Shown one piece after another: positions 16,331 through 64,000 of a stretch of 64,000 bases of DNA (position 1 is its first letter; every line of letters begins with the position of its first letter). The stretch spans positions 12,034,382 to 12,098,381 of the forward strand of contig CM049317.1 in NCBI GenBank assembly GCA_026874595.1, in the 5' to 3' direction. The position numbers and the translations under genes were made by a program. The notes below the pieces were generated by a model. The model had not been told where the DNA came from, searched no databases, and worked only from the letters and a program-made list of their open reading frames with translations. Source of the stretch: Sipunculus nudus (lineage: Eukaryota > Annelida > Sipuncula > Golfingiida > Sipunculidae).

Positions 16331-16608
16331 TGTCAAATCATAATGATACGTCTCTATCAGTTTCCCCGCCTGCTGTTGCTGCTTTGCTGACAGGTTCGGC
16401 CAATGATTACCTCGTTGCATGTCTCCTTGGCCTGTAACGGACAACACGCATCTTCTGTGCTTAGTTTTGAATCATCAGGGTCTTCGCTGCTTACCTGAGC
16501 GTTCTGGACAACTTCGAACAGCAGACTTCCTATACATGTCACCATCCATGTAGTTGATATGGAAGGTCTTGTGGTTCCCTTTGACACCGAGTCAATAGTT
16601 GCAATAGT

Positions 16609-17535: not shown

Positions 17536-17923
17536 TGCTTCATTTCATAGCTTCCGCGGTACCACCAGTTGAACAAAAGGAGTATGGTCTCTGGGTGAAA
17601 AGTAATCCCTTTAAATGACGCCATTCTTGGTTTAATATCTTTCTGTGCATCCTTTCTTTGAGTTTGTCCTATGTCCACGTTTAATTAACGTCGCACTCTG
17701 TCAAGAGTAGTATCCTGCCGCTATGCTTCACGCTGTTGTACCACCATTTTCTCTTGTGCTCTGGCCACTACGGCACACGGCTGTCATTCTCCCTTACTGG
17801 CTTCAATCTCCTGTTTCTCGGCGACCACCTACCATCTGGATCTGCTGGTTGCATGGCTCCTTCAAGATTGCATATTACCTGAACAACACTTGGTTTTCAA
17901 TGGCTAAAGCCTCTACTGAACCT

Positions 17924-21402: not shown

Positions 21403-22354
21403 ACTGACACAGAAAGGTCACTTCTTGATCCATCTCCCGTCAGGCCAGGGCACAAAAAGTGGTCTTCCACTAGCCGCTAATATAATGGGTCAGGAAAAAA
21501 GTAATAGGGAAACGTCATTTATTACGGCATATACGAAATGTATGTTGGAAATTAAAATTTCATGCTTGCCTTGTGTAGATTTAATTATAACTATTATATA
21601 CAAATAGCATGGTAAATTATATCATACAATAATCAAACACTTTATCAGTATGAAGAAGTAAAGCAGGTAGGTAGAGCATACATATCTATTAAAGTAATTA
21701 CATTATTCGTAAAGAGATCATTTTACATTAAGTAAATAAAATTGTTGGGCATAGGAAATGACGAACAACGGAATTATATTTAGGAAAGTGTAAAATTAAG
21801 ATATCATAAAAATGGAAAACATAGGAAGGTGAGTTCTGGTAAGTAAGATGTCAAGATATCAATTCTGTTGCTAGCTGCTAAATTAAGAAGTTTTATCTAA
21901 GCCACAAAGGTCGACTCGTGATCCCTCTTCAGTCAGTTCTGAGCAGAGGAAAGGGCCTTCAACGGACTGCTTAGAAAACCAGTTAATTAACAAGGTAATA
22001 GGAGCTCCTCCCCTTATTCAAAGCATAAGTTAACTCTGTAGCGTCTATACATTTTAAAGCAAGGTGCAATATCTGAAGAAGCTTCAGATAAAGTTGTAGG
22101 TAGTTAAGTCTATTGATCGGGCATATTGGGTTCTCTGATATAAATACATTGAACGCACACCTGATTTTCCGTTTAGGAAAATGACCAATCCTAAGATATA
22201 ATGCACATCAGAATGTATATGTTGCTTACTACTAAATTAAGATATTATTTCACATCTGAGCAGGCTGATTTAAAAAGGGATCCCTCTCCAGTCAGGTATG
22301 AGCACGGGAAATGGCCTTTTCACAACCAGCTCAGATAAGCAGTCAGAAGGAAAG
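21403..22354 (+). pseudogene. Decayed R exons at the left edge of the array
   Basis: 21403-21500 keeps the start (TDTERS...SPVRP) but has an in-frame TAA and has lost one base at the donor. 21902-21994 is open (31 codons) but has a weak acceptor, and the conserved Trp codon is GGG. 22264-22354 is 91 nt: it lacks three codons and carries one extra base, so it is frameshifted. These look like retired copies. Confidence 0.7.
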
Positions 22355-25300: not shown

Positions 25301-28300
25301 ACAATGAATATATATTAACAAATTACAGAAATCAAAACCATGTAGCAGATAGGGTCCCTAGCCTGATACGCCTTACAAGTGCACGAGTAGAGACCAAATT
25401 AACTGCAGTGGCCGCACACAAAGGAATTCTGTTTTATACAGAGTCCGGTTAAAGCATCTCTAGACGTGCTTAAATGGGAGTACTGGACCCTGACTGGCTA
25501 CCCGAATTGCGGCACTGGTCCCGAATAGGCGGGACTGGGGCCGAACTGGCGGGACTGGACCAAAACTGGCGTCACTTGACCCCAACTGGCGGCACTGAAC
25601 CCAGACTGGCGGTTATTTGGCCTCTGGTCACTGAAGCCAGACTTATCAATGAACACTCTGTGTATGCGACCTATTTAAATAGCCTTCTGTCCTGGAGGCT
25701 CATCCATATTCCTAGGTCTCATAAAATACCTGGGACCCGCTTTCTATCTAGATGCCATAATTAAAAAAAGGGAAAATCTTGCCAAATGGCATGATTTACT
25801 TCGTTACTTCTAAATTGAGATTTTATTTCACGTCCAAAGAGGTTGATTCAGAAAGGTTGCCTCGTGATCCAATTCCAGTCAGGCCAAAGCACAGAAAATG
25901 ACCTTCCACTGGCAGCTTTGATAAGCAGTCAGAAGACAAGGTAACACAGGAAAAGTTTCACAATACTGTATATTAGAAAATTTGGGATGGCAATTTAAAG
26001 AGATGTGTGCTTCCTTTAAATTTAATATAACCTTAACATGCATACAGCATGACGAATCATATTAAGAAAATGTAGTATAATGTATTTGTGTGAACTACAT
26101 GATGAGGTGAAAAATAAAAGCCCCTTGATTAATGACATGCAAAGTAGAAACAAATATGCATTAAGTGTAATCTAAACACATGTAATCTAAACGAATGAAA
26201 CATTATCGGAAGATTCTACAGGGTTAAGTAATGGTATAAATAAATGTTGTACGGGCATAATAAAGTCATGGTATTTACGAAAATGACCGTACAAGAATAT
26301 CATACGGTATGATTTACATAGGAATGTATATGGTGTCCGCTACTAAATGCGATGTTGGCTGATGTCTTAACAGACCGAGTCAAAAAGGCTGCCTCGTGAT
26401 CACCCGCCTGTCAGGCCTGAGCACAGGAAATGGTCTTCCGATAGCCGCTTGGATGAGCATTCAGAAGACAAGGTAAAAGGGTAAACTTTGTTAAATAAAA
26501 AGTTATAAGATTTGAATTTAAAGACGGTCTTCCTTCGTTTAGATTAAAGTATTTCGTTAATTTGCAAATAGTATATCAATTATATTACAAAATTACCCGA
26601 TAATTTATTATTATGAACATTTATAGGTACAACTGATAATATCCCATAAACTCATAACATTATATTAAAACAAGTCATTTCACAGTTCGTAAAACATGTT
26701 TGATAAAGATGGAAAATGGTGAACATAGGAAGGTGTGTTTTAGTAAGTGTCTTGTTGAAATATCATTTGTGTTGCTAGCTACTAAATTAACAGGATGTTT
26801 GGCAAATGAAATAATATCTTTAACTACAGAACTCATTTCCATTTAGTAAATAATATAAACCGTGAGACGTGGTGCAAACATTTATGTATTTTTTTCTAAC
26901 GTGTAAATTAAAATATTTCTTTAAACATCTGTACAGGCTGAGTCAAACAGGTCGCCTCGTGATCCCTCTCCGGTCAAGCCTGAGCAGAGAAAATGGCCTT
27001 CCACTGGCAGTTTAGATAAACAGTCAGAAGCCAAGGTAATAGTATAACATTGAAACATACTGAGCCACAAAGGTCGAATCGTGATCCCTCTCCAGTCAAT
27101 CTGGAGCAGAGTCAATGGCCTTTATCTGGCAACTTAAATGATCAGTTAACTGACAAGGTAATAGGAGCACCTCGCTGAATTCAAAGCTTAAGATAACACT
27201 GTACAGACATTTTATCGTCAGGTGCTTTATCTGGAGAAGTTAAGGATAAAGGTGTATGTATTGACAGATATTGACTGTGATCATAATATTTTCTGAAATA
27301 ATAACATTGTCCCCACAAATACTTCCCTATTAGGTAACTAAACAAGGGCAAGATGTCATTAACATAAGAAAGTATATGTTGCTTACTACAGAATTAAGGT
27401 TTGTTAAATAGCAGAACGTTTCTCAATACAATGCATACGTGTGGGACTAGAATTTCAAAGTGCACGTTTCCGTCTATCAGATTTCATTTCAAACAATATG
27501 TTAATTGCATAATGAATTATTGAAGGCACGGTATGAACATCCACCGCAATGACTGAAAATCCACTGAGTTAATTATAGTGATCATCCCCCTGTGGTGATT
27601 TAGAAGATAGCAAGGATAACTCAAATTCACTCTTGAACCCTAGCGTAGGATTTAATCATCAGAAAACTGAACATATGACCTACAAAGAAAGAAACAAAAA
27701 CTACTACTACTACACATGCATAGGAAACAAAAAGCTGCAATGACAGCACAGAAATGAGTTCATACAGATCACAACACCTCCATTTGGTCAAAATAAATAT
27801 GCAGATGTAATGAACATAATACGGTATGCTTTTTTTACTTTAGAATTGGGATATTATTTGACTTCTGAACAGGTTGAAAATAAAAGGTCGCCTTCTCGAT
27901 ACTCTCCAGTATAAAAAATATGGGAAAAAGAAGACTTGCTTCCTTCGCTTAGACTTAAGTATTACTTTAATATGCAAATAACATGATCAACTATATTAAC
28001 AAAATACCCAATAATTTATTAGTATGGACTTCTGTAGGTATAACTAATAATATCTTAAGAACTTAACTAATTGTATTTAGTGTAACACAACTCATTTAAA
28101 AGTCAGTAAAACAAATTTGATAAACGTAGGGAATGATAAACATAGGATGGTATGTTTCGGGGAGTGTCAAGTTAAGATATCATTTCTGTTGCTAGCTACA
28201 AAATTAACAGGTTTTTTGACACTTTAGCAGTCTGAGCCACATAGGTCGACTCGTTATTGCTTTCCAGTCAGTCCAGATCAGAGGAAATGGCCTTCAAATC

Positions 28301-31300
28301 GCAGTTTTGATAAACAGTTTATTGCTAATCTAATAGTGGCACCTAGCATAATTCGAAGCATAAGTTAACTCTCTACAGTCCGAATTTTTAAACGCATTTT
28401 GCAATATTTGAAGAAGTTACAGATAAGGTATCTACATATATTGATTTGGCACAAAACATTCCCTGAAATAATAACACCGACAACTCAACTCATTTCCATT
28501 TAGTAAATACACAATCGTAAGATGTTGCGCACATAATCATGTATATGTTTCCCACTATTAAATTAAGATATCACTTAACTTTTGACCAGGTTGATTCAAA
28601 CAGGTCGACTCGGGAACCTCCTCCAGTAAGGCCTGAGCAGAGAAAATGGCCTTCCACTGGCAGCTTAAACTTACAGGTGGTTGACAAGGTAATGGGGACA
28701 CCTCGCATAATTTGAAGGATAAGATAACTCTACACAATCTTTACATTTAAAGGCATTTTGCATTATTTGAAAAGGGTACAGTTGAAGGTATAGGTATTAA
28801 CATATATTGCTCAAGCACAAAACAGTTACAGATAAAGGTATAGGTATCTACATATATTGATTTGGCACAAAACATTCCCTGAAATAATAACACCGACAAC
28901 TCAACTCATTTCCATTTAGTAAATACACAATCGTAAGATGTGGCGCACATAATCATATATATATTTCCCACTTTTAAATTAAGATATCACTTAACTTTTG
29001 AACAGGTTGATTCAAACAGGTCGACTCGGGAACCTCCTCCAGTCAGACCTGAGCAGAGAAAATGGCCTTCCACTGGCAGCTTAAACTTACAGGTGGTTGA
29101 CAAGGTAATGGGGACACCTCGCATAATTTGAAGGATAAGATAACTCTACACCGTCTTTACATTTAAACGCATTTTGCATTATTTGAAAAGGGTACAGTTG
29201 AAGGTATAGGTATTAACATATATTGCTCAAGCACAAAACATTCCCTTTTATAATATCACTGACCAGGTCTGAGCAGAGGAAATGGCCTTCCACTGGTAGC
29301 TTAAACAAACAAATTGTTGACAAGGTGATAGGGCACCTAGCATAAGTCGAAGCATAAGACAACTCGGTGCAGTCTTTATATCTAAACGAATTTTGCAATA
29401 TTTGAAGAAGTTACAGATAAAGGTATAGGTATTTACATCAATTGGTTGGGCACAAAACATTTCCTGAAATAATAACACTGACAGCACCACTCACATCCAT
29501 TCAGTATATAAACAGTGGTAAGATGTGAAGCACAAACGAAAGTATATGTTTCGAACTAGAAAATTCAGATACTATTTAACATCTGACCAGGCTGAGTCAA
29601 ACAGGTGGCCTCGAGATTCATCTCCAGTTAGGCCTGAGCAGAGGAAATGGCCTTTCACTGACAGCTTAAAGAAAAAGGTGTTTGACAAGGTAATAGGGGC
29701 ATCTCGCATAATTCTAAGCATCAGAAAACTCAGTACAGTCTTTATATTTATACGCATTTTCAATATTTGAAGAAGTCACAGATAAAGGTATAGGTATTTA
29801 CATATATATTGGTTGGGCACAAAACATTTCTTGAAATAGTAACACTGACAGCACCACTCACATCCATTCAGTATATAAACAGTTTTAAGATGTGATGCAC
29901 AAACGAAAGTATATGTTTCGAATTAGAAAATTCAGATACTATTTAACATCTGAACAGGCTGAGTCAAACAGGTGGCCTCGGGATCCCTCTCCAGTCAGGC
30001 CTGAGCAGAGGAAATGGCCTTCCACTGAGAGCTTAAAGAAAAAGGTGTTTTACAAGGTAATAGGGGCATCTCGCATAATTTTAAGCATCAGAAAACTCAG
30101 TAGAGTCTTTATATTTATAAGCATTTTAAATATTTGAAGAAGTTACAGATAAAGGTATAGGTAATAACATTTATAAGCTGGGCACAAAACATTCCAAGAA
30201 ATAATATACTGACCACACATCTCGTATCCATTAAATGGAGACTCAAGCGTAAAAAGTTAGGCACGTAAGAAATTAGATATTCCTAACTAGAAAATAAGAT
30301 ATTACTTTACGTCTGAACAGGTTGCGTCAAACAGGTCGCCTCGGGATCCCTCTCCAGTCTGGCCTGAGCAGAGGCAATGGCCTTCCACTGGCAGCTTAAA
30401 CAAACATGTGGTTGACAAGGTAATATGTGCCCCTCGCATAATTCGAAGGATAAAATAACTCTGTATAGTTTTAATATTTAAAAGCATTTAGCAATATTTG
30501 AAAAGGGCACAGATAAAGGTATAGGTATTAATATATATTGTTTAAGCACAAAACATTCCCTGAAATAATAACACTGACAACTCAACTCATTTTCATTTAG
30601 TGAATACACAATAATAAGATGTGGCGCACATAAGAATGTATATGTTTCCCACTACTAAATTAAGATATTACTTTACTTCTGAACAGGTTGAGTCAAACAG
30701 GTCGACGCGGGATCCCTCTCCAGTCAGGCCTGAGCAGAGGCAATGGCCTTCCACTGGCAGCTTAGACAAACAGGTCGTTGACAAGGTAATATGTGCCCCT
30801 CGCATAATTCGAAGGATAAAATAACTCTGTATAGTTTTAATATTTTACGGCATTTAGCAATATTTGAAAAGGGTACAGATAAAGGTATAGGTATTAATAT
30901 ATATTGTTTAAGCACAAAACATTCCCTGAAAAAATAACACTGACAACTCAACTTATTTCCATTTAGTAAATACACAATATTAAGATGTGGCGCACATAAG
31001 AATGTATATGTTTCCAACTACTAAATTAAGATATTACTTTACTTCTGAACAGGTTGAGTCAAACAGGTCGACTCGGGATCCTTCTCCAGTCAGGCCTGAG
31101 CAGAGGAAATGGCCTTTATCTGGCAACTTAAACAAACATGTGGTTGACAAGGTAACATGTGCCCCTCGCATAATTCGAAGGATAAAATAAGCCTCTACAG
31201 TCTTAACATTTTAACGCATTTTGCAATATCTGAAGATGTTAAAGATAAAGGTATAGGTATTTATATATATTGACTACACGCAGTACATTCCCTGAAATAA

Positions 31301-37286: not shown

Positions 37287-37330
<44 letters not shown>

Positions 37331-42047: not shown

Positions 42048-42126
<79 letters not shown>

Positions 42127-44321
42127 TTAAATAAACATGTATGCGTCAACAAAATACATTAATTTCAAAGAAGTTTTATTTGAAAATTTTTATTAATGTT
42201 CCTAGACAATAAAATACATCTACTGTAAATCCTGGTCTACAGGGTTTCCTTGTATATGAAATGGTACACATGGTGAATGAAGGCCGTGACTGCAATAACG
42301 TTCAGAAATTAATAAAAAAAAAACATATTGACCTTTCCTCTGGGAATAATAATACTATAAAAAGAATACCAACTTAATTTACATTACATATGCTGCTTTA
42401 GCTGATTGTACCCGATGAGAAAATAAAGTCATTGGGAATTACGCATTTGGCCAAAGCGACGGAGGAGGAGCCTGTTGCACTTAAACAGGTATGTTTTGCC
42501 GTAGTTATTGCAGATGAAGTTAATCATTGACCATATCTGAGTAAACATCTTGGTCAATTGTAATGAACCTTCTGCGTAGCACTGCTGGGTTTTTTCTTCC
42601 TTTTTTTTTAGTTTGCAAATTTATATAGGGCCTCTTGGTAATTGGGTGTCATCTGAATAAAGGACAGGTATATCTTGTTTTCCGCTGTCACAGTTTTAGG
42701 TCCAGCCGCACTCAAAGGTCAACTATGTAACTAGTCCCATTTTCCCAGACGGTTTTAAAATAAAATTGATGTTTTTAAGTAAAAGAGCTCTTAAAGAATA
42801 AAACATATTCCAGGCTCAATATTTTTAATTAACAAACCATCATTTAACACAAACTAGTGTAATTTGATATAACTTGTGATGTGTGCAACGTTCCGAGATA
42901 AGGTCTATCATGTATCATTTGTTGTTGGCGCTTATGGGCGCTCGAATAACACCGTATATATTTCAAACAAAGAACTTTTGTTGCCGTCCGTTGCACTGCT
43001 AAAGGGATCACGCGATATACGTGATGTGATAATTTTGTATCTCATTCATTAATCACATTTTCAGAAACAATATTGTTTATTACAATTAAGTTGTCAAGTA
43101 TATTTTAAATATTTTTTTTTGTGTTCATACGTATGGTAGCCTGGGAATGAATTAGTCACTGCCATTATCAAAACAACTACCTATGAACATTACTCGCGTG
43201 ATGCTGTAACTTCTTACAGAGTGAAACGGTAGAAAAAAATAATTGTTACTGAGGAATTTGAATGTAAAATAGATCCAGAAATCTTGGTTGCTTCAAAAGA
43301 ATGCTCCCACATTTCGGTTGAAGAGGTTCATTTAGGCAACTTTACATTATTAATGACTTATAACTGGCGTTTGTCAATGGTAGTATTTTTTATCTTAATA
43401 CCAATGTTTTTATTTACATGATATATTAATTTAAAAGAATTATTGTTGGAGTATTTTGTTTAATGTTCCTAGACGATATAAACACATATCCTACAAAACA
43501 AGGTCCAAAAAAACTTGAGTATAATAATGTACACTAAACATTGAATGCATTGTAGTGATCCACCTGTATGGTGGTGTTGCTTTATGGATTACAACGACCC
43601 ATTTATATCAGTTCTATGATAACTCAATACCATATGAAATTATGATGAATATAAATCGTTTTCAGATGTCACAGTTTAATGTTATATGAATCTGTGATGG
43701 GTATATCTGGTTTTCAGATGTCAAAGCTGTTAACCCAACCGCACTCAAGGGTCAACTTTGTAAGTGGCTGCCTTTTCCTAGACGGTTTCAAGATAAACAT
43801 GGTGGAGGTAACTAGAAGAGATATTAAAGCATGAAATGTAATCCAGGTTTAACGGGTGTTAACAAGTCGTTCTTAAACTCAATCTGGTGAATTTTTTGTA
43901 TGGAGATGTAACGTTCGCAGATAATGCCTACTAAGGGACCCAGTATGATTTAAAACTTTTGTGAATGTCTATGCAAACGTGGTCACTAAGGAATGATCCT
44001 AACAGTGCTATCCTCGAAACAACTGTCTTTTAAAAATACACGTGCTGCTCTAACCTCTTACAGAGTGTCAAGGAAGAGACAATAATCTGTACTGTGGTAC
44101 CTGAATGCAAAATATATCCACAGTTACTGATCAGAGAATGCTGCCACATTGGACTTGAAAAGGTAGGCTTACCTAGCAGCAGCAATAGATTGCTTCTGAA
44201 TTAAAGCAGCCGTTTGTCATGTTATTTCGAGGATTAGTACACGTTAATAAACATTAATGTATCAATATTATTCATTAAAATGAAAGGAATATAACCGGTG
44301 AATTTTGTTTTCTATTCCTAG

Positions 44322-44363
<42 letters not shown>

Positions 44364-46075
44364 AAAATGCTTGGTCTACAGGATTTCATTGTATATGGAA
44401 TGGTACATTACATATAAAAAACCATAGCTTTGACAGATACAAGTTTCAGAGATTGCCCCAAAACAGATTAACCTATATGTAAGTTTCATTTGACTTATGC
44501 TGTGTAATTAAAGGAATACAAGTTCAGTTAACTGAGGTATGCTGTTTCAGTTAATTGTACCCGTGGAGACGATACAAACAGTGGAAATTATACATTATGC
44601 CAAAGCGACGGAGGAGAAAGAGCCCATTGAACTTGAACAGGTAAGATTTGAATTAGTTATGGAACATAGTTTAATCATTTGATCATATTTAGGTAAACTT
44701 CATGATAAAATATAATGACCCTTCTCCGCGGCGCTGCTGCTGCTGCTTTTACCATTTTTTAGTTTTACCATTTTTTTAGTTTTACAATCAACCCTTTTGT
44801 GTACGTCTCTTTTGTAATTGAATGTCATATGAATCTATGGTAGGTACATGATTTTCAGCTGTCACAGTTCTTGATCCAACCGCTATCAAGGGTCAACTTT
44901 GTAACTGGCTGCCTTTTCCTCGATGGTTCAATGATAAAGTTGATGGAGGTAAGAAGTAGTGATATTTAAAGAATGGAATATATTCCATGTAAACTGTTTG
45001 CAAACAAACTGTCTTTTAACTGAAACTGTTGACTTATGGTATTGAGATGAAACGTTCGCAGATAATGTCTATAAATATATCCGGTCTGTGTTCCACTTCT
45101 TGTGATTGTGCGTTCAAACGAGATAACGGAAGAATTAACCCTAGATTGCCATACTCGAAACAACTGTCTCTTGAAAATACCCGTGCTGCTCTATCGCCTT
45201 ACAGAGTGTAAAAGACAAGAAAACAGTCGTTACTACGGAACCGGAATGCAAAATAGATCCACAATTACTAGTCGCATCGAGAGAACACTGCCACGTTCGG
45301 CTTGAAAAGGTATCTTAGAGCAGCAATAGCTTGCTTTCGAATGAAAACAGCTGTGTATCATTTCAAACATTAGCATATATTAATACATAAGACTGAATCA
45401 ACATGATATATTAATCTGAAAGGAATATTATTGAGAAATTCTTGTCAATGTTCTTAGACAATGTAAACATATTTACTTTAAAGCCTGGTCTCATGGGCTT
45501 CCTTGTATTTGAAATGAAACATAACATAAATAATTAAGACCTTGACTGAAGTAATTTTTAATTTTTTCAGAGATTATTTAAAATTGTTTTGACCTATTCT
45601 GAGGTATAACAATAATAAAATGTGTGATATAAAGGAATACTAGCTAATTAACCTTACATATGCTACTTTAGTTGATTGTATCAGAGGAGACAATAAAGAC
45701 AGTGGAAATTATACATTTTGCCAATGCGATGGAGCAGAAAGAGCCTGTTGCACTGGAACGGGTAGGTTTTGAATTGTTTTTTTTCAAATAAGGTTAATCG
45801 TGTGATTATGTTTAAGGACACATCTTGATCAACTGACATGAACTTTTTGCTTGGTGCTGCTGAATTTTGCATTTTTGGTTTACAACCAACCCATTTATAT
45901 AGGCCCTTATGGTATTTGAATGTCAAAAGGATATATGATGAGTATATCTCGTTTTCAGATGTCCCAGGTGTTAGTCCAACCGCACTCAAAGGTTAACTTT
46001 GTAACTGGTCCCTTATCAATATTATTCATTAAAATGAAAGGAATATAACTGTTGAATTTTGTTTTCTATTCCTAG

Positions 46076-46135
<60 letters not shown>

Positions 46136-49100
46136 TGCTTGGTCTACAGGATTTCATTGTATATGGAATGGTACATTACAACCATAGCTTTGACAGATAC
46201 AAGTTTCAGAGATTGCCCCTAAACAGATTAACCTATATGTAAGTTTCATTTGACTTATGCTGTGTAATTAAAGGAATACAAGTTCAGTTAACTGAGGTAT
46301 GCTGTTTCAGTTAATTGTACCCGTGGAGACGATACAAACAGTGGAAATTATACATTATGCCAAAGCGACGGAGGAGAAAGAGCCAATTGAACTTGAACAG
46401 GTAAGATTTGAATTAGTTATGGAACATAGTTTAATCATTTGATCATATTTAGGTAAACTTCATGATAAAATATAATGACCCTTCTCCGCGGCGCTGCTGC
46501 TGCTGTTTTTACCATTTTTTTAGTTTTACCATTTTTTTAGGTTTACAATCAACCCTTTTGTGTACGTCTCTTTAGTAATTGAATGTCATATGAATCTATG
46601 GTGGGTACATGATTTTCAGCTGTCACAGTTCTTGATCCAACCGCTATCAAGGGTCAACTTTGTAACTGGCTGCCTTTTCCTCGATGGTTCAATGATAAAG
46701 TTGATGGAGGTAAGAAGTAGTGATATTTAAAGAATGGAATATATTCCATGTAAACTGTTTGCAAACAAACTGTCTTTTAACTGAAACTGTTGACTTATGG
46801 TATTGAGATGAAACGTTCGCAGATAATGTCTATAAATATATCCGGTATGTGTTCCACTTCTTGTGATTGTGCGTTCAAACGAGATAACGGAAGAATTAAC
46901 CCTACATTGCCATACTCGAAACAACTGTCTTTTGAAAATACCCGTGCTGCTCTATCCTCTTACAGAGTGTAAAAGACAAGAAAACAGTCGTTACTACGGA
47001 ACCGGAATGCAAAATAGATCCACAATTACTAGTCGCATCGAGAGAACACTGCCACGTTCGGCTTGAAAAGGTATCTTAGAGCAGCAATAGCTTGCTTTCG
47101 AATAAAAACAGCTGTGTATCATTTCAAACATTAGCATATATTAATACATAAGACTGAATCAACATGATATATTAATCTGAAAGGAATATTATTGAGAAAT
47201 TCTTCTCAATGTTCTTAGACAATGTAAACATATTTACTTTAAAGCCTGGTCTCATGGGCTTCCTTGTATTTGAAATGAAACATAACATAAATAATTAAGA
47301 CCTTGACTGGAGTAATTTTTAATTTTTTCAGAGATTATTTAAAATTGTTTTGACCTATTCTGAGGTATAACAATAATAAAATGTGTGATATAAAGGAATA
47401 CTAGCTAATTAACCTTACATATGCTACTTTAGTTGATTGTATCAGAGGAGACAATAAAGACAGTGGAAATTATACATTTTGCCAATGCGATGGAGCAGAA
47501 AGAGCCTGTTGCACTGGAACGGGTAGGTTTTGAATTGGTTATTTTCAAATAAGGTTAATCGTGTAATCATGTTTAAGGACACATCTTGATCAACTGACAT
47601 GAACTTTTTGCTTGGTGCTGCTGAATTTTGCATTTTTGGTTTACAACCAACCCATTTATATAGGCCCTTATGGTATTCGAATGTCATAAGGATATATGAT
47701 GAGTATATCTCGTTTTCAGATGTCCCAGGTGTTAGTCCAACCGCACTCAAAGGTTAACTTTGGAACTGGTCCCTTTCTCCTAGACCAATTTATGATAAAA
47801 TTGATGGAGGTAAGTAGGCGACATCTTAAAGATTAAAATAAATTTAAGGTTTAATGCTTGTTAACGCAAACTAGTGTTTTAAGTAACTTGAGATGTGTGT
47901 AAGTTTTCAAGATACTGTTTATTAAGTTTCCCGCTACGTTTACCATATTTTGCGAATATGCGTGGATACTTATGGAAGCTGGGGAGTTATTGTGATAATT
48001 AAAACAACTGTCTTTAAACAAAACTGTTACTATAACTTCTTACAGAGAGCGAAGGTACAGAAATCAATTATTATAGTGGAACCTGAATGCAAAATAGATC
48101 CACAATTACTAGTCGCTTCACGAGAATGCTGCCACATTCGGTTTGAAAAGGTTTGAAAAGAGTATAAATATATTGTATTAAAATTGTCACATCCGTTATT
48201 CATTTCCAGCTTTAAAAAAATGTTATTTAACCTGAATGTGTCACAAATGAAAAGTAATGTGAAAGGAAAGTTATTGGAGTATTTTGTTTAATGTTTCAAT
48301 GTATAATTATATATACATCTGCTATCAAATGAGGTCTACATAATTATCTTCTACATAGAATTACAAAAAAACATAATATTACAAAACGTATTTACATGTA
48401 ATGGTTAGATTAAAGATGGTTTGATAAAAGAAATTCCAGCTAACTTTCCGTTACGTATTCTAATTTAGTTGTTTGTACCAGGGGAGATAATAAAGCCAGT
48501 GGAAATTATACATTTTGCAAAAGCGACAAAAGAGGAGGTGTCTATTGAACTCAATCAGGTATATTTTAAAATAGCCGTGCAAGATAAGAAAAAAACCGAT
48601 TGACCATATTTCAGTAAATGTCTAAATTAACTGTGCTAAAGCTATACTGCCTTATTAAGTAAATTTAAATTTTATAAAGGAAACACCATCTACATTTACG
48701 TTACGTATCTTGTTTTAGTCATTTGTGTTCGACATACTACAAAAATAGTATTGGTAAAGAAGGGAATACATATAATTCTGTTGAACTCAAATGCAATATT
48801 GAACCATAAATACTATAGAAAAGAAAGTTATTAAAATCCCTCATGTTCGTGAATTAATCAGCGTAACATATTTTTTACGATATAAATTAATCCAAAATTC
48901 AATAATAATTATAATCATTACCGTAAATTATAATTATAAAATGCTGGAGTCATATACACGTGAATACTCTTCTGTGCTTATTTTATATCCCCACTAGCGT
49001 ACACACTTAAAGACTGCTTTAGACATTTGTATCTCTGAAACCAATATAAACCTCCGTGTATATATTAACAGGCTCGTGAAAATGAGAGGATCATTGTACT

Positions 49101-49272
49101 ATCGGGAGTAAACCAGGCTGAGATATTGCCAAGAGAACGTGAAATACAATATTTCAGAAAGGTAATTTAAATTTGTCAGTGTGCACAGATTGTTTACGAA
49201 ATAAACGTAGGGATGATACATTACGTTCAAAAGATTCAGAGCATGCAGCATATTATTGCAAAGAATACACAA

Positions 49273-49343
<71 letters not shown>

Positions 49344-52300
49344 ACTGGGATTCATCCCTCCACAATTCATAATTGCGACGCATTTTAATGTCTTGCCTGC
49401 TGAAGCATTTCATTCACAACCGACGTCACATCAGGCCCCCGTATCCATCAGATCTCTCACATCACTCTCATAGCCGACTGGACATCTTGTCCAAGATTTG
49501 ATCTGACATAATTAAACGGCTCTAGACCTTGTCCTTACAACATAGCAAAGACTAACAATCGATATTGTAACGTCGTTGTCTGTCTGAATCACGCCCTTTG
49601 CACATACATACGCTGTTATATCCGAAACACTATCTTTAATACGTTCCCCTTCTCTAATACAAACAAATGCCCTGCTCAAAACTCGCGAGTAAGAAACGAT
49701 AGCTTGTGCGTCTACGCGATCAGCTGCACTTTTGTATAAAAGAGAGAGAGAGAGAGATTAGTCGTAAATAGTGTTGTACAGCTTGTTTGATTTCGTATCC
49801 ATATATTAACAGCAGTTATTATTTTCAGACGAAATAACAAAGTGTGAGTTAAACTGATACAGGATGCTTTACAAGCTTGCACGCATGTGTATGTCATTAA
49901 AACAATAAAAATTTCTCAGCAGTAAATACTTAAATAAATAATTGAATTTTGTACATTGAATACTCTTAGTGTAATACTATAAAACTATACTTGCATGCTC
50001 GAAATTTTTTTACAGCCATTGTATCATTATCAATTTTTCGACGTAACTAAATATTACTCAGAAAGGGAAAGGCAGAGACAAAAGGTAGATAGACTTATAA
50101 TATTTGATTCAGAAATTGAGATATATAGTTTGAACATCAAACAAAAAGTATGCCTAATCGATCTGAATAAAGCTTAAAATAAACTTTCCATGGTGAAAGC
50201 TCAATAATACACATGACGCCATATTATAGTTTTTTTCTTTGATTTATTTCAAGAGGACATATCAATATGGCGCAGAATTCCTAAAAGATCGACCAATGAA
50301 TACACCAACTTCGGTATGTATAAAACTTTACCGTCAGCAAAACCATGTTAACATAATGCTATATTTTTCATGTTATATAAGCCCATTTTACCATTTTGCC
50401 TAGTTGGACAGTATTGACGAAGACAGGTTTTTGGATTTTACATGTTGAGCGATATTGCTCCTTTGCATAACCACATTAATAAACCCTGTTTATACGATGT
50501 TGACTGCATTAAAATTCTCTACATGACATACGGCCCGGGGAACGGGCGGTGTGTCACAATATCCATATGGAATGTGTAGTAGACTGCTTATGAAATGAAT
50601 CATTGATATTTAAATTATTCAAATTATTTATTAAATTATCAGTTAAATAAGTACAGTGGAACCTGTGTGAAATCCCTTCTGTCTAATAAGACAACCTGTC
50701 TATAAATACCAGCTTTTGGTGAACTGAAAACACTCGCAATGGTTAAAAATATCTTGTTTGATTTAACTACCTGTACATTCAGACCATGTTTGGATTTCTT
50801 ATTACACAAGTTTCACTGTTTTATCATAGTAACTACCTCAAGTGTAAGTAATTGTCAAATGCTCTTTATATTTCCAGCAAACGGCTCGGTATCCACCATT
50901 TTACGTATTGAAGTATTATGAAATAAGGAGAAGACAAACAAGAGATGTAGGTTATTGATTATATTATAAATATTCTTTCAGAGGGCCTTATATTCAAAAC
51001 CGACCTACATACAAAAGTTTCGTTTGAGAAAGTTAAATTATATACATTATAGAATGCTACCATTTTTTTTCTTTATATTATTTCCAGAGGACCTATCGAT
51101 ATGGAAAAGAGTTACTAAGAGATCAAAACTTAACCTCACCAACCTCGGTATTATTCAGCATTTCCTTCATTATGAAGACTCTGTTAGGAGAAAACCATTT
51201 AACAATTCTCATTATTTGGAGAAACATCCTAAAAGCATTACATTTTCATCTTTCAGCGACTTTGGTATCATAAATAATTTTTCTTTGATGTGAACTTTCC
51301 GTAGTCAAAATTAAAATCACCATAACTATACAATACAAACTATCTAAGGCTTTATTTTTCATTTGACTGTATTACAATTGAAGTTCAAAGATCTTAGGCA
51401 GTCAACTAGTCAAGATTCAAGAAATGGCAGAAGCAATGCTGAAGTTTATGTTGCAAGAGACGTAAGTCGCTCTCATTTTCTATCATATATTACAAGAATG
51501 AAATATATTCATGCTTTGTTAAATCCTATATTTATATGCTAATGAATTACCTGTATGCGTTTTACAACTGCGGATATTTGTTTAGATTTCTTTACAAGAA
51601 GAGATGACAAATATACTGGGAAATGTACATTCAACTAAAGCTAAAGAAGGAGGTGAATCTGAACAGGTGTGTTTCAAGGCGCAGTATTCCAAAGTAATCC
51701 GTCTAGCAGAATTATGCCCTTTTTCATTTACTCATTTGGTAGCTCATTTAATACGATGCTTCTGTTTTTTATGTTTTATTTTAATATCTAAAGAATAAAG
51801 TAAGCTTCATTGTAAGGAGGTGACACTCATTCAATCTTCAGGAATGATATGTTCCAAATATGTAGGATTTCTAGCAAGGGATCAGTGTTCTCCCCTGAAC
51901 GACTTTAGGTACCATTTGTTTCACAGGACTGTGAGTGAAACCTAATTTTCGGCATAGGCATCTATCAGTCAAGCGGAAATCTGGTCAAGTAGACGGATTT
52001 TCCATTGTTGTTATTCTTACTTTTACTTTTATTACATATGATCATTACCGAGAAAGAAAATAATCAAAGCAATATATAAACATTCCATAAACTTAGGTGA
52101 TATTTTCCCTGAACAGTACTGGAGGATAGTAAAACGCAATTGGAATTATTAAAATATTTATATCTAAAGACGTTATTCCTTTATAATGATTAGGTGATTT
52201 CATATAGGTTCCTACAACTAAAAGACTTGTTTCTGTACGTGAATTTCCCCGTTCAGTTATATCGACGTTTTCGAGTAGTTTTCAGTTAATTTGTCCTTAT

Positions 52301-53851
52301 GTTTCGGGGCATAACTCACTTTCTAAGACTGGTTAAAGGCTCTGGTCAATAGTGGCAGTGCTGTTGAAACTTCGCTTATTCAAGATACTATAGGGAAACT
52401 TTTCTAAATAAAAATAATCACGTCTTACCCAGGATGATTCCTGTTTCTGATCCTTGAATTCAATACTGATAGAGAACAGAATCCCTATATATTTGCGTTT
52501 GTTAAATTTAAACATGTTCTGTTATGTTTTTTTTTAATTTTCTATAATTCATGCAATAGCCAGATATCTTTTTTCCAAGAAATTTATCTGTTATTTTAAA
52601 GATATCTTAATAAATGATTAAATAAAATAATATTAATCTTAACTTATTTCAAAGGTCACAGAAGAAAGCGAATCAACTGGATATAATTCTGAAAGCATCG
52701 AAAGCAATGCGACTCTTCCAAACGTAGGTGATTTGAAAATGTGTACTTAGCTTTAAGCTGAAAGTATTATGTAAATCTTTTAATGTGCTTGTAATGCTCT
52801 CTTTTTTATTATTAGTCCATTTTATTATCCTGTTATCTAATCTGTATAATCTTGGTGTACATTTACATTTCTTAACATTGAAACCACCTAAGCATGTGGC
52901 CTGCTCATTCGCCCTGGAATATTCTGTCTTAAAATAAAATATTGTTTTATCTAGTAAAATAATTTGAGGAATATCCGAGTGTTTTTAAAAATTACCCGTA
53001 GTAAATTACAAAAAGTCCGGAGGTGTAGGAATCTCAATTTAATATTTTACTTTCCTTTGAAAACTGATGGAACGCTATTACAAAATTTTGTTTACTTATT
53101 GTCAGGTATAATAGCTTCATGAAACGACTGAATACCATTCTTAAAGCAATGCAAGATATACCAATGGAAGATATTATGATATAACAGACATTAGAGGGTA
53201 GCACGAGTTAAATATTCTTAAATGATTTTTAAATATGAGTTAGAGATGATTCTGGTTGTTACAAGGGTAGGTTCGATTAGAGATATATTTTCCTTAACAA
53301 AGGTAACCCTACAATTATGGTATTTATATTCTCCATTATGACCCATGGGCTATGAGGCTGGACCGGTTTAACATGGAATTAAAGACTGACCGAGAGATAT
53401 TCGCGAATGGAAGGATAATCACATATAAATATTATGAATGCTATGAACAATTTTTTTTTTCTACAGGATTCTCAGATTTATAGCAGCAGTGTCCAGTCTG
53501 TCAAATGGACGACTTCAAGGTTGTTTCCGCGCATTTTCAGTTAACACGGACTTGGTTTTCCTTAGAATGATCGCAAAGTAATACGATGATATTTTGAAAT
53601 ATACATTTTATATTTATGGTTTTACTCTTTAAAGGCTTTGTTTGATTTTAAAGATAGTATATCCCATAAATAGAGTAGGTGCAGATTCAAACAACGCTGG
53701 AACCTCAACAAGAGCAGGAATGGAAGCAGATGCAATAAAGCCTATACAAGGAGCACAACAAAATATTCGAGAAAACAAACAGACAGACAGAACAAACCCT
53801 CAGAGGTACCCAGCTTATCATCAATGTAAAAAGGTCTTCTGCGACATGTGA
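21403..53851 (+). CDS. Exon-array gene: dozens of tiny phase-0 exons in tandem families (5' end not found)
   Basis: At least 45 short segments on the plus strand are bounded by AG and GT, have lengths divisible by three, and are open in the same phase (0-0). They fall into families R (33 aa), A (30), B (30), C (35) and paired D exons, and end in a 65-aa terminal exon followed by AATAAA. Summing the intact exons gives about 1,400 aa. Differences between copies fall mainly at third codon positions of this phase (for example Arg CGG/CGT/CGA in R; GAA-CCT/CCG and GCT-TCA/GCA-TCG in C), which supports coding use. The product is hydrophilic, rich in Lys, Glu, Pro and Arg, with no membrane segment seen. 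No family was recognised. No start codon or signal peptide could be tied to it; the true first exon may lie left of the Penelope/Gypsy block. Confidence 0.65.
22815..25640 (-). mobile_element. Second Ty3/Gypsy element, internally deleted
   Basis: Direct repeats at 22815-23065 and 25285-25640 share 'ggctaagcaacaatgaatat', 'agatagggt/ggatagggtt', and 'tctctagacgt' followed by a GC-rich minisatellite; these are the LTRs. On the minus strand a gag-like frame appears at 24666-24472 and continues at 24394-24116, preceded by PTVKLPPFDE. Integrase pieces occur at 23.45-23.1 kb, including a CKTCDVGH-type zinc site and a GMMERFNG block. No RT is seen, so most of pol is deleted. It sits inside the R array. 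Confidence 0.65.
25480..25625. repeat. GC-rich minisatellite within the LTR (unit about 20 bp)
   Basis: About seven imperfect units of 'aactggcggcactggaccc' type. The other LTR (22990-23065) has only about three units, so copy number differs between the two LTRs. Confidence 0.7.
25841..25940 (+). pseudogene. Decayed R exon with Trp codon changed to TGA
   Basis: 100 nt instead of 99: one extra C causes a frameshift, and the conserved TGG reads TGA. Splice sites are still AG/GT. Confidence 0.7.
26374..27035 (+). CDS. Intact R exons at 26374-26472 and 26937-27035
   Basis: Both are 99 nt, phase 0, with AG acceptors and GTAAAA/GTAATA donors. The products begin TESKRLPRDHPPVRPE and AESNRSPRDPSPVKPE, and each has the conserved KWxSxxxL core and a charged end. 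A further R-like segment at 27065-27157 is open for 31 codons but has only a weak acceptor 29 bp after the preceding donor, so it is probably unused. Confidence 0.65.
27873..28329 (+). pseudogene. Damaged R exons (27873-27915 partial; 28231-28329 donor lost)
   Basis: The first keeps the acceptor and about 14 codons, then is cut short by TAA and a deletion. The second is open over all 33 codons with a good acceptor, but the donor GT has become CT. The intron word 'ctaatag' shows this is a point change. Confidence 0.6.
28590..29104 (+). CDS. Intact R exons at 28590-28688 and 29006-29104
   Basis: The two exons are identical in predicted peptide (VDSNRSTREPPPVRPEQ... ending NLQVVDK), 99 nt, phase 0, donor GTAATG. 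The flanks are also nearly identical, so this is a recent duplication. A truncated copy (29267-29324) follows, in which the intron 'gaccag' is fused to the exon middle. Confidence 0.7.
29591..30056 (+). CDS. Intact R exons at 29591-29689 and 29958-30056
   Basis: Both begin AESNRWPRD and carry a distinctive LKKKVF(D/Y)K end in place of LNKQVVDK. Both are 99 nt, phase 0, donor GTAATA, 367 bp apart. They form a subfamily pair within the array. Confidence 0.7.
30321..33351 (+). CDS. Nine consecutive intact R exons with 366-367 bp period
   Basis: Exons are 30321-30419, 30687-30785, 31053-31151, 31420-31518, 31786-31884, 32152-32250, 32519-32617, 32886-32984 and 33253-33351. Each is 99 nt and phase 0, with AG acceptor and GT donor. 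The consensus begins VESNRS(T/P)RDPSPVRPEQ and ends with KWPSTGSLNK and VVDK. The run shows no stops and mainly conservative changes. Copies 1-3 and 4-6 are near-identical as 1,099-bp blocks including introns. The exon chemistry (Arg, Ser, Pro, Glu; one invariant Trp) suggests a flexible repeat domain with unknown role. Confidence 0.75.
33740..34229 (+). pseudogene. Decayed R exons at the right edge of the array
   Basis: About 33750-33837 has lost the acceptor (caaaccaag) and is shortened. About 34128-34228 keeps 'ccctctctccagtcaggt' and a donor but is rearranged. Neither reads through in the family frame. Confidence 0.6.
34350..37335 (+). mobile_element. L2/CR1-like LINE, degenerate, inserted in an array spacer
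   Basis: Endonuclease pieces (MDKQYDIVGITET, stop, LKES; KSGGFAVIYKSSL; VGDLNFHLDDN) are followed by RT pieces (LDLSAAFNTIDHQVL, a GVSKSSVFGPL block, LDYANSLLYGLPNHAIGRLQ) and the typical C-terminal FQYASAHEWNSLPDAIRK. There are many stops and frameshifts. It ends in an (ATA)n tail at 37289-37330. Short 'gttgaca' words flank it (34350 and 37340) and may be the target-site duplication. Confidence 0.75.
37289..37330 (+). repeat. (ATA)n tail of the LINE
   Basis: About 14 ATA units at the 3' end of the LINE, consistent with the simple-repeat tails of the L2/CR1 group. Confidence 0.85.
37791..38678 (+). CDS. R-related single exons at 37791-37877, 38062-38160 and 38622-38678
   Basis: 37791-37877 (29 aa, ADSEEPSRQVCLV...) has a strong ttgcag acceptor and a GTAATG donor. 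38062-38160 (33 aa, TESKGKCGYPCPVKV...) keeps family length, the Trp-Pro pair, and an IEDQ end as in the R copy at 26374. 38622-38678 (19 aa, NDQTKLMSPGIAAE...) is weaker and could be chance. All are phase 0. Confidence 0.55.
39374..39502 (+). CDS. Long R-related exon (43 aa)
   Basis: 129 nt, phase 0, pyrimidine-rich acceptor (cctttcctatcaaag) and donor GTAATG. The second half (LPIQPEKRKRPSGSNLDKEV) matches the R consensus SPVRPEQRKWPSTGSLNKQV with Trp replaced by Arg. The N-terminal ten residues (ERDKFYIYVR) are extra. It looks like an ancestral or diverged R exon, linking this part of the gene to the array. Confidence 0.65.
39930..40330. mobile_element. Probable diverged LTR fragment
   Basis: GC-richer than its surroundings. 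It shares 'cacatgtcacattagagcgcc' and 'ccctgggctactca' type words with the Gypsy LTRs at 13.26 and 19.36 kb ('cacacatgagcgccctctc'). No internal domains, so it may be a solo LTR. Confidence 0.35.
40331..41274. other. Intronic stretch with no clear exon
   Basis: A possible exon at about 40974-41031 (acceptor ccctaaag, donor GTAATC) has an in-frame stop in phase 0 and was not accepted. Nothing else is recognised. Confidence 0.4.
41275..41989 (+). CDS. Cassette 1: exons A1 (41275-41364), B1 (41536-41625), C1 (41885-41989)
   Basis: A1 (30 aa) starts LFLPEETIKRLEV and ends EAVALEQ. B1 (30 aa) reads MSQLSIQPYSRVNFVTG then LFLNV. C1 (35 aa) contains PECKIDPQLLV and ECCHV and ends VEK. All are phase 0 with good acceptors (cttcag, ttttcag, cttacag) and donors (GTATGT, GTAAGG, GTACCT). 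This three-exon cassette is repeated downstream. Function unknown. Confidence 0.7.
42052..42124. repeat. (TA)n microsatellite
   Basis: TA run in the intron after C1, with a short interruption. Confidence 0.95.
42402..43325 (+). CDS. Cassette 2: A2 intact (42402-42488), B2 and C2 decayed
   Basis: A2 (29 aa, LIVPDEKIKSLGIT...) is open with a GTATGT donor. The B2 position (about 42690-42780) has lost its frame and contains stops. C2 (43220-43325) is 106 nt: one extra A in a poly-A stretch shifts the frame to a TGA, although EC-K-IDP words remain in another frame. Confidence 0.6.
43718..44162 (+). CDS. Cassette 3: B3 (43718-43807) and C3 (44064-44162); no A copy seen
   Basis: B3 (30 aa, MSKLLTQPHSRVNFVSG...) and C3 (33 aa, two codons shorter; SVKEETIICTVV...) are open in phase 0. 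No A exon could be found between C2 and B3, so this cassette is incomplete. Confidence 0.65.
44327..44361. repeat. (TA)n microsatellite
   Basis: TA run in the intron before A4. Its duplicate at 46079-46130 is longer. Confidence 0.95.
44551..45309 (+). CDS. Cassette 4: A4 (44551-44640), B4 (44859-44948), C4 (45205-45309)
   Basis: A4: LIVPVETIQTVEIIHYAK and an EPIELEQ end. B4: LSQFLIQPLSRVNFVTG then CLFLDG. C4: SVKDKKTVVTTEPECKIDPQ, with EHCHV in place of ECCHV. All are phase 0 with good splice sites. This cassette lies in the segment that was duplicated to give cassette 6. Confidence 0.7.
45672..46016 (+). CDS. A5 intact (45672-45761); B5 truncated at the duplication junction
   Basis: A5 (30 aa, LIVSEETIKTVEIIHF...) ends GTAGGT. 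B5 starts at 45959 with MSQVLVQPHSKVNFVTG but is cut at about 46016, where sequence copied from the intron at 44265 begins. B5 therefore has no donor. Confidence 0.65.
46079..46130. repeat. (TA)n microsatellite
   Basis: Longer duplicate of the tract at 44327-44361. Confidence 0.95.
46311..47070 (+). CDS. Cassette 6: A6 (46311-46400), B6 (46620-46709), C6 (46966-47070)
   Basis: Near-identical to cassette 4, offset by 1,760-1,761 bp. The predicted A6, B6 and C6 peptides equal those of A4, B4 and C4. All are phase 0. Confidence 0.7.
47433..48150 (+). CDS. Cassette 7: A7 (47433-47522), B7 (47720-47809), C7 (48046-48150)
   Basis: A7 equals A5. B7 is complete (MSQVLVQPHSKVNFGTG..., GTAAGT donor) and shows what B5 lost. 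C7 (RAKVQKSIIIVEPECKIDPQ...) differs from C4 mostly at third codon positions over the shared core. The C7 donor reads GTTTGA, weaker than the others. Confidence 0.65.
48469..48558 (+). CDS. Exon A8
   Basis: 30 aa, LFVPGEIIKPVEIIHFAK, ending IELNQ, phase 0, acceptor ttttctaatttag-like and donor GTATAT. A further A-like start at 48719 (SFVFDI...) runs into TAG and is a decayed copy. Confidence 0.65.
49072..49161 (+). CDS. Exon D1 (30 aa)
   Basis: ARENERIIVLSGVNQAEILP..., ending YFRK, phase 0, acceptor ttaacag, donor GTAATT. It is highly charged, fits the style of the surrounding exons, and has no obvious copy. Confidence 0.55.
49276..49334. repeat. (TA)n microsatellite
   Basis: TA run in the intron after D1. 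Confidence 0.95.
49335..50015. other. Intron between D1 and D2
   Basis: No exon seen. It contains a short (GA)n tract at 49740-49757 and a GC-richer patch at 49390-49700 that may be an old LTR piece. Confidence 0.35.
50016..50313 (+). CDS. Exon pair D2 (50016-50084) and D3 (50254-50313)
   Basis: D2 (23 aa): PLYHYQFFDVTKYYSERERQ and a basic end. D3 (20 aa): RTYQYGAEFLKDRPMNTPTS. Acceptors are tttttacag and tttcaag; donors are GTAGAT and GTATGT; both are phase 0. The pair has a diverged duplicate (D4-D5) about 850 bp downstream. Confidence 0.65.
50404..50448 (+). CDS. Possible alternative terminal exon
   Basis: After a strong acceptor (ccattttgcctag), 14 codons (LDSIDEDRFLDFTC) end in TGA in the family phase. 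AATAAA follows at 50478. It could give a shorter protein isoform. The evidence is only splice signal plus poly(A) signal. Confidence 0.35.
   Translation: MDSIDEDRFLDFTC
50640..50735. repeat. Fragment of a common dispersed repeat
   Basis: 'gtacagtggaacctgtgtg' and 'aacctgtctataaatacc' resemble widespread invertebrate interspersed repeats. The family was not identified. A related 'gtcttataagacagctt' occurs near 56040. Confidence 0.3.
50878..51147 (+). CDS. Exon pair D4 (50878-50946) and D5 (51088-51147)
   Basis: D4 (23 aa): QTARYPPFYVLKYYEIRRRQ; same length and Y-x-x-KYY core as D2. D5 (20 aa): RTYRYGKELLRDQNLTSPTS, clearly homologous to D3. Both are phase 0 with tttccag acceptors. The order D2-D3-D4-D5 shows a duplicated two-exon unit. 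Confidence 0.7.
51402..51666 (+). CDS. Exons D6 (51402-51461) and D7 (51586-51666)
   Basis: D6 (20 aa): STSQDSRNGRSNAEVYVARD, donor GTAAGT; its acceptor (cttaggcag) lacks a good pyrimidine tract. D7 (27 aa): ISLQEEMTNILGNVHSTKAK, then a Gly/Glu-rich end, donor GTGTGT. Both are phase 0. Confidence 0.5.
52655..52723 (+). CDS. Exon D8 (23 aa)
   Basis: VTEESESTGYNSESIESNAT ending LPN, phase 0, acceptor tatttcaaag, donor GTAGGT. Acidic and serine-rich. Confidence 0.55.
53467..53544 (+). CDS. Possible alternative last exon D9
   Basis: After ttctacag, 25 codons (DSQIYSSSVQSVKWTTSRLF...) reach TAA in phase 0. The visible donor (CAAG|GTTGTT) would give phase 2, which does not fit the terminal exon. 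So this is either an alternative end or not used. Confidence 0.35.
   Translation, partial: DSQIYSSSVQSVKWTTSRLFPRIFS
53654..53851 (+). CDS. Terminal exon of the exon-array gene (65 aa and TGA)
   Basis: After the acceptor tgattttaaag, phase 0 reads IVYPINRVGADSNNAG..., a hydrophilic Asn/Thr/Gln/Arg-rich segment ending CKKVFCDM and TGA. The other two phases hit stops within a few codons. AATAAA lies 141 bp after the stop. Confidence 0.6.
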   Translation: MVYPINRVGADSNNAGTSTRAGMEADAIKPIQGAQQNIRENKQTDRTNPQRYPAYHQCKKVFCDM

Positions 53852-53991: not shown

Positions 53992-53997
53992 AATAAA
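53992..53997 (+). promoter_or_regulatory. Poly(A) signal AATAAA
   Basis: First AATAAA downstream of the terminal exon, in the order expected for the end of the exon-array transcript. Confidence 0.55.
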
Positions 53998-59060: not shown

Positions 59061-59120
59061 AACATTTCCTGGTTGTTTCATTGTCAACATCTGTTCAGCT
59101 TGCGCTCGGTCTACCAAAAC

Positions 59121-59915: not shown

Positions 59916-59965
<50 letters not shown>

Positions 59966-61188: not shown

Positions 61189-61235
<47 letters not shown>

Positions 61236-63948: not shown

Positions 63949-64000
63949 GGGAACACTCTGCCTATAAAGTATGTCAGTGTTTTCTTGTTCGATTAAGAAA

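Follow-up and report, generated by a model that had tools for sequence, protein, structure and literature searches.

A long array of short exons occupies the plus strand in the middle of the window, i.e., the whole 64,000-nucleotide stretch of Sipunculus nudus DNA analyzed here (GC content, 36.2%). An exon was counted as intact when it had an AG acceptor, a length that is a multiple of three, an open phase 0, and a GT donor. Between positions 26374 and 53851, we identified 43 intact internal exons (15 R, 3 X [X1 to X3], 7 A, 5 B, 5 C, and 8 D [D1 to D8]) and a terminal exon with a TGA ending at 53851, making 44. The internal exons are 60 to 129 nt long, with 7 of the 43 at 81 nt or less; an R exon encodes 33 aa, and the A-B-C cassette encodes 30 + 30 + 35 aa over three exons. 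A preliminary description of this DNA had reported at least 45 such segments, a figure that is approached if two open R copies (21896 and 27059) are added, although neither has its AG in register. Several families of like exons, open and with the same phase on both sides, are present in the exon table as that description had it. Its statement that every exon is symmetric fails for 8 of the 25 R stretches (broken or partial), for the broken B2 and C2, and for a truncated B copy at 45959, and the start that it proposed, 21403, is a broken R copy carrying an in-frame stop.

The R exon is 99 nt long (33 aa), with the consensus VESNRSPRDPSPVRPEQRKWPSTGSL.K.VVDK and a composition rich in Pro, Ser, Arg, and Lys. 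Alignment across 20 to 56 kb placed 24 R stretches on the plus strand (scores, 62 to 198), whereas the minus strand had no alignable stretch, its best score being 26. One more R stretch, with an in-frame stop, was found at 27873 in the exon table. These 25 stretches comprise 15 intact copies, 2 open copies with a moved acceptor, and 8 broken or partial copies, as follows (source in parentheses).

21403, plus strand: broken R copy, in-frame stop (alignment)
21896, plus strand: open R copy, acceptor moved (alignment, exon table)
22264, plus strand: broken R copy, in-frame stop (alignment)
25842, plus strand: broken R copy, in-frame stop (alignment)
26374..26472, plus strand: intact R exon, 33 aa (exon table)
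26937..27035, plus strand: intact R exon, 33 aa (exon table)
27059, plus strand: open R copy, acceptor moved (alignment, exon table)
27873, plus strand: broken R copy, in-frame stop (exon table)
28231..28329, plus strand: open R copy, donor lost, counted as broken (alignment, exon table)
28590..28688, plus strand: intact R exon (exon table)
29006..29104, plus strand: intact R exon (exon table)
29264..29324, plus strand: partial R copy (alignment)
29591..29689, plus strand: intact R exon (exon table)
29958..30056, plus strand: intact R exon (exon table)
30321..33351, plus strand: core R array of nine intact 99-nt exons, period about 366 bp, exon starts 30321, 30687, 31053, 31420, 31786, 32152, 32519, 32886, and 33253 (repeat listing, exon table)
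33744..34228, plus strand: two broken R copies, at 33744 and 34122 (alignment, exon table)

In the copies at 21896 and 27059, the in-register AG is gone and an AG that is in frame follows within a few bases. The core array has a three-unit (about 1.1-kb) higher-order repeat, with full-unit identities of 99.2% for 30321/31420, 99.2% for 30687/31786, and 100% for 31053/32152; this repeat arose by recent tandem duplication. Between 29591 and 33351, each of the 11 R exons is intact, and the broken R copies all lie outside that segment. The stretch at 22950 to 25640, within the R region, looks repeat-like by eye, with tandem 20-mer copies at 25501 to 25612, and two of its reading frames gave no Pfam match.

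Three X exons are followed by the A-B-C region (41275 to 48558), in which 7 of 7 A, 5 of 7 B, and 5 of 6 C copies are intact. The rows below come from the exon table, except for the truncated B copy; alignment (X2) and the repeat listing (X3) were also used.

37791..37877, plus strand: X1, 29 aa, single copy
38062..38160, plus strand: X2, 33 aa, distantly related to R (30% identity)
39374..39502, plus strand: X3, 43 aa, R-like second half
41275..41364, plus strand: A1, 30 aa
41536..41625, plus strand: B1, 30 aa
41885..41989, plus strand: C1, 35 aa
42402..42488, plus strand: A2, 29 aa
42685..42779, plus strand: B2, broken (stop, acceptor lost)
43220..43325, plus strand: C2, broken (frame lost, splice dinucleotides kept)
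43718..43807, plus strand: B3
44064..44162, plus strand: C3, 33 aa
44551..44640, plus strand: A4
44859..44948, plus strand: B4
45205..45309, plus strand: C4
45672..45761, plus strand: A5
45959..46030, plus strand: B copy cut short at the joint of the duplication (about 19 codons of B, other sequence, stop)
46311..46400, plus strand: A6, recent copy of A4
46620..46709, plus strand: B6, recent copy of B4
46966..47070, plus strand: C6, recent copy of C4
47433..47522, plus strand: A7, recent copy of A5
47720..47809, plus strand: B7
48046..48150, plus strand: C7
48469..48558, plus strand: A8

Both AG and GT are kept in 18 of the 19 tabulated A, B, and C copies, including the frame-broken C2. Among four joined ABC units (the fourth being A2 + B3 + C3, which are not direct neighbors), three share 62 to 68% identity with the first, and 35 of 95 columns are invariant, including a run within C, PECKI.PQLL...RE.CH. 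A roughly 1.6-kb block (44.4 to 46.0 kb) is repeated at 46.1 to 47.8 kb with 20 mismatches in 1,618 aligned bases, of which a single one, silent and at a third position, separates exons A4, B4, C4, and A5 from their young duplicates. The repeated block is a recent local tandem duplication. C2 (43220 to 43325), with its frame lost and its AG and GT retained, is a possible poison exon; its inclusion would truncate the product, so splicing must avoid C2 or the gene is partly failing.

The 3' end is formed by the D exons, listed from the exon table apart from D9, with D2 to D5 also from a pair comparison.

49072..49161, plus strand: D1, single copy
50016..50084, plus strand: D2, pairs with D4
50254..50313, plus strand: D3, pairs with D5
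50878..50946, plus strand: D4
51088..51147, plus strand: D5
51384..51461, plus strand: D6, single copy
51586..51666, plus strand: D7, single copy
52655..52723, plus strand: D8, single copy
53467..53544, plus strand: D9, perhaps an alternative last exon (TAA after 25 codons)
53654..53851, plus strand: D10, terminal exon, 65 aa, TGA

The predicted tail is rich in tyrosine and arginine, and an AATAAA lies at 53992, past D10. Read up to one GT that was tried, D9 is 53 nt long. Exon and flank divergence are roughly equal in the pairs D2/D4 and D3/D5, so these calls are based on open frames, splice sites, and the D2-D3 order that recurs as D4-D5. Weaker calls, made from splice signals and place alone, are D1, D6 to D8, X1, and D10.

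Lectin receptors on both sides had been noticed in the preliminary description, and Pfam supported them through Lectin_C matches, which occurred only in these two neighbors, and a ZU5 match. The following features surround or interrupt the array.

4700..9780 (about 4.7 to 9.8 kb), minus strand: receptor-like gene with two C-type-lectin-like domains
15600..17545 (15.6 to 17.5 kb), minus strand: retroelement remains
35974..36441 (35.97 to 36.44 kb), plus strand: reverse-transcriptase fragment between R and X1
59100..63950 (59.1 to 64 kb), plus strand: second lectin-like receptor

The minus-strand receptor gave Lectin_C matches with E values of 1.6e-8 and 1.1e-3 (the second of these short of the curated cutoff), a hydrophobic membrane segment seen by eye, and an intracellular ZU5 tail (Pfam E, 3e-4, just above the cutoff); it combines a lectin ectodomain with an UNC5/ankyrin-type tail domain. 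A PDB search with its joined intracellular tail returned nothing below an E value of 0.17. The second receptor (Lectin_C E, 3.5e-7) ends in a frame at 63550 to 63945 in which several tyrosines (e.g., in YEDERY, SIYTDIEW, and YVDAQYPIYTV) were read by eye and which resembles a signaling tail. Nothing in the evidence gathered ties the modular gene functionally to the flanking lectin genes. The retroelement remains match Integrase_H2C2 (E, 9e-15), with RVT_1 below the cutoff, and the fragment at 35974 to 36441 matches RVT_1 at an E value of 5e-4, likewise below the cutoff. By eye, 34400 to 37330 on the plus strand is a degenerate LINE-like element with an ATA microsatellite at its end, between the R exons and X1.

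Splice signals and open frames by themselves carried little information. Open symmetric AG..GT segments of 60 to 129 nt number 478 on the plus strand and 428 on the minus strand, with a mean of 291 in 10 first-order shuffles. The shared exon logic put forward in the preliminary description is barely commoner on the plus strand, and we rejected the AG/GT/symmetry rule alone as proof of coding because the minus strand is nearly as rich. What stands above chance is the family structure together with constraint over whole exons. Divergence between copies was 0.216 in A exons versus 0.30 in both the upstream and downstream 150-nt flanks, 0.206 in B (flanks, 0.26 and 0.30; 150 nt), 0.193 in C (0.30 and 0.35; 150 nt), and 0.207 in R (0.28 and 0.25; 100 nt). 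Gap openings per 100 aligned bases ranged from 0.2 to 1.3 in the exons of these families versus 2.3 to 5.4 in their flanks, an excess of about 2-fold for C to well over 10-fold for R; for C with 60-nt flanks, the difference nearly vanished (0.99 in the exon versus 1.14 and 1.50). Whole exons of R, A, B, and C are therefore better kept than their flanks, whereas those of the D pairs are not.

Equal divergence of exons and introns, which would speak against a gene, is absent from R, A, B, and C; it is present in four broken R copies (21403, 21896, 25842, and 28231, two of which are open but have lost a splice site) and roughly in D2/D4 and D3/D5. The four broken copies diverge by 0.317 in the exon register versus 0.31 and 0.33 in the flanks, and their dN/dS among themselves is 1.12; they were chosen for their 99-nt length, hence their low gap count is uninformative. 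Two of them, each compared with an intact copy, gave a dN/dS of 0.66 to 0.67, like intact copies. The idea that conservation drops sharply at each splice site was considered and rejected. Divergence in 30 exon versus 60 intron bases was 0.23/0.26 (A), 0.22/0.26 (B), 0.27/0.22 (C), and 0.19/0.28 (R) at the acceptor and 0.20/0.31 (A), 0.26/0.29 (B), 0.15/0.31 (C), and 0.26/0.27 (R) at the donor. The step is clear at the A donor, the C donor, and the R acceptor, reversed at the C acceptor, and small or absent elsewhere.

Substitution patterns were examined in intact older copies (5 of 7 A, 4 of 5 B, 4 of 5 C, 6 of 15 R, and 2 in each D pair), with young duplicates and broken copies kept out and reported apart. 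By counting, dN/dS was 0.63 (A), 0.67 (B), 0.51 (C), 0.61 (R), and 0.61 and 0.53 (D pairs), with every family-wise interval including 1; dS was 0.36 to 0.39 and dN 0.20 to 0.25. Intron divergence (0.287 raw, about 0.36 after Jukes-Cantor correction by hand) is close to dS. The pooled value was 0.62 (0.43 to 0.88) for all families and 0.60 for A, B, C, and R. Two sets of 300 neutral simulations gave means of 0.85 and 0.86, lowest 2.5% limits of 0.63 and 0.62, and lowest runs of 0.57 and 0.60; these runs assumed a star phylogeny and did not condition on open frames, which makes the margin of 0.60 versus 0.62 to 0.63 rough. Some shifted or reverse-strand frames gave ratios that were no higher (reverse phase 0, 0.31 for C and 0.56 for B; reverse phase 1, 0.42 for R; phase 1, 0.42 for C), so the ratio alone is unconvincing. 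The phase 0 comparison proposed in the preliminary description thus yields a pooled ratio below nearly all neutral runs, but the interval of each single family includes 1, and we regard the constraint on A, B, C, and R together as weak.

That description had also held that copies differ mostly at third codon positions. The counts contradict this (72 of 200 differences in A, 42 of 124 in B, 43 of 124 in C, and 134 of 316 in six of the 15 intact R copies), and for A to C a third-position excess was rejected as proof of coding. Among older lineages, 13 of 15 ABC copies are still open (P = 2e-4 at a neutral chance of 0.39 from the intron rate and 6e-3 at 0.52 from the exon rate, counting substitutions only); the 8 of 14 open R lineages are within chance (P = 0.13 and 0.45 at the same two values, again for substitutions only). 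Overall, coding is well supported for A to C, fairly supported for R, and less so for the remaining exons. The exon array and the families of the preliminary description are largely borne out, whereas its claims on third positions, universal symmetry, the start, and the exon rule fail.

Searches with the predicted R, X, ABC, and D peptides, which represent the 3' part of the gene, gave no Pfam match above the cutoff; those listed (YsdD, E value of 0.019; FF, 0.14) were rejected as identities because they fall below it, and neither Lectin_C nor Ig/Fn3 was matched above the cutoff. The PDB searches covered R, X2, ABC, and D. ABC as one unit had a best E value of 1.4 and as a profile returned nothing, and neither the R profile (with X2 among its rows) nor D returned anything up to an E value of 1. 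The predicted protein appears to have no Pfam or PDB relative, and the word orphan applies to these two databases only. In a protein library, neither an 82-residue R frame nor the 1,257-residue joined prediction, for which only the 7,989 candidates sharing most words were scored, found a relative. The lectin-receptor control (656 residues, 1 to 640 used) was likewise missed, so this null result says nothing on absence in animals, and the word undescribed in the preliminary description is unproven. Searching the rest of the window by tblastn with the exon peptides, including six R copies, gave only E values of at least 0.08, apart from the self-match of the ZU5 query. No convincing signal peptide or first exon was found in 9.8 to 41 kb; the one signal-like ATG frame, at 23048, has a phase 2 donor and surroundings that look repeat-like by eye. 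On a charge-hydropathy plot, a crude proxy, R and D fall on the disordered side and ABC on the folded side, as does the ZU5 tail used as a control.

We interpret the locus as probably, though by no means securely, the 3' portion of a single plus-strand gene that encodes a long modular protein. R, ABC, and D exons would be joined in one transcript. New copies would probably come from unequal crossing-over between similar introns, which would change the number of R and ABC modules and whose recent action the young duplicates show. Recent copies have formed by local tandem duplication, alongside other copies that decayed. Because each intact internal exon is symmetric, the loss of an exon, or its presumed skipping, would leave the frame unbroken, and protein length could therefore vary between individuals and perhaps between isoforms. 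Most likely, R would serve as a flexible spacer or as a docking segment in repeated copies, and ABC would fold into a small repeat unit; the protein would have a flexible R part that varies in length, ABC repeats in varying number, and a tyrosine-rich tail. The modular protein of variable repeat number suggested by the preliminary description is the best reading, given the exon constraint, the kept AG and GT, and the recent unequal duplications, but the copy-number variation is a part that we infer.

An unlikely but serious alternative is a gene that died recently or is dying, with past constraint and decay under way, R copies first. It would account for the 8 of 25 R copies that are broken or partial and the 2 more that lack an in-register acceptor, for the broken B (2 of 7) and C (1 of 6) copies, for the splice dinucleotides retained in C2, for the reverse-transcriptase fragment between R and X1, and for a dN/dS of just 0.6. 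It fits poorly with the intact state of all seven A copies, with the retention of both splice dinucleotides by 18 of the 19 tabulated A to C copies, with the block of 11 intact R exons at 29591 to 33351 outside which the broken copies lie, and with the youngest ABC duplicates, which differ by one silent exon change.

A further division of the array, into an R gene (26 to 39.5 kb) and an A-B-C-D gene (41.3 to 53.9 kb) that each have their own start, strikes us as rather improbable. Strand and phase 0 are shared throughout, and no last exon was noticed by eye from X3 (39502) to A1 (41275), although the gap of about 1.8 kb between them contains no recognized exon and, at the sensitivity of alignment and tblastn, neither is an R copy found inside the ABC-D part nor an A to C copy inside the R part. 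That the array consists of noncoding tandem repeats with frames open by chance is very improbable. The near parity of open symmetric AG..GT segments (478 plus, 428 minus), the satellite-like 366-bp array, and the several splice sites without a clean step are what such repeats would show; four families that diverge less, with fewer indels, over whole exons and a pooled dN/dS under nearly all neutral runs argue otherwise.

If the single gene that we favor is transcribed as proposed, it would clearly illustrate, in nature, how a protein can lengthen and shorten through whole-exon duplication, and its two independent arrays would let exon turnover be measured between individuals. Live, dead, and freshly copied exons adjoin here, an arrangement with which gene finders cope poorly. 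The protein is possibly new. A bolder reading, which we hold to be a long shot, is that of an undescribed animal protein family in which the R spacer and the ABC cassette vary in phase 0, possibly as an immune or signaling scaffold. Equally doubtful is the scope of that reading, namely, a setting among lectin-receptor genes with individuals and isoforms differing in module number.

As a modular array in which live, young, and dead exon copies coexist, the locus belongs to a kind that is already known. Fibrillar collagen genes have long runs of phase 0-0 exons of 45 to 162 bp; the present array resembles them in these runs, but its exon peptides lack a Gly-X-Y repeat. Davis et al. reportedly described, in 1988, tandemly repeated 81-base exons in Schistosoma mansoni, a likeness, by title, in small exons set in tandem. 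Schistosome micro-exon (MEG) genes have exons of 6 to 81 bp (3 to 81 is also given), most of 15 bp, and encode proteins that begin with a signal peptide and whose central exons are spliced into isoforms, according to PMC10526429. Like these, the present array is a row of short exons with lengths mostly in multiples of three; unlike these, its exons are 60 to 129 nt long, with 7 of 43 at 81 nt or less, and the signal peptide with which MEG proteins start has no convincing counterpart in 9.8 to 41 kb. No tandem exon array in a mollusc was evident by title among the matches listed; one title (PMC5589949) concerns a single duplicated exon in an oyster oxidase.

The PEVK segment of titin is another likeness. 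According to PMC6469411, its exons are short, repetitive, of low complexity, and hard to annotate; tandem duplication at the locus has added and removed them, LINE elements are implicated in causing such duplications, and the exons are recognized by a P+E+V+K (and Ala) ratio of at least 0.54 per exon. The present array shares the many short repetitive exons, the low complexity, and the local tandem duplication, whereas its ABC cassette has no PEVK counterpart. The R exons also fall below the 0.54 threshold, with a P+E+V+K ratio of 0.39, or 0.41 with Ala; the highest single exon, among the 11 of 15 intact R exons measured, reached 0.48 for P+E+V+K+Ala.
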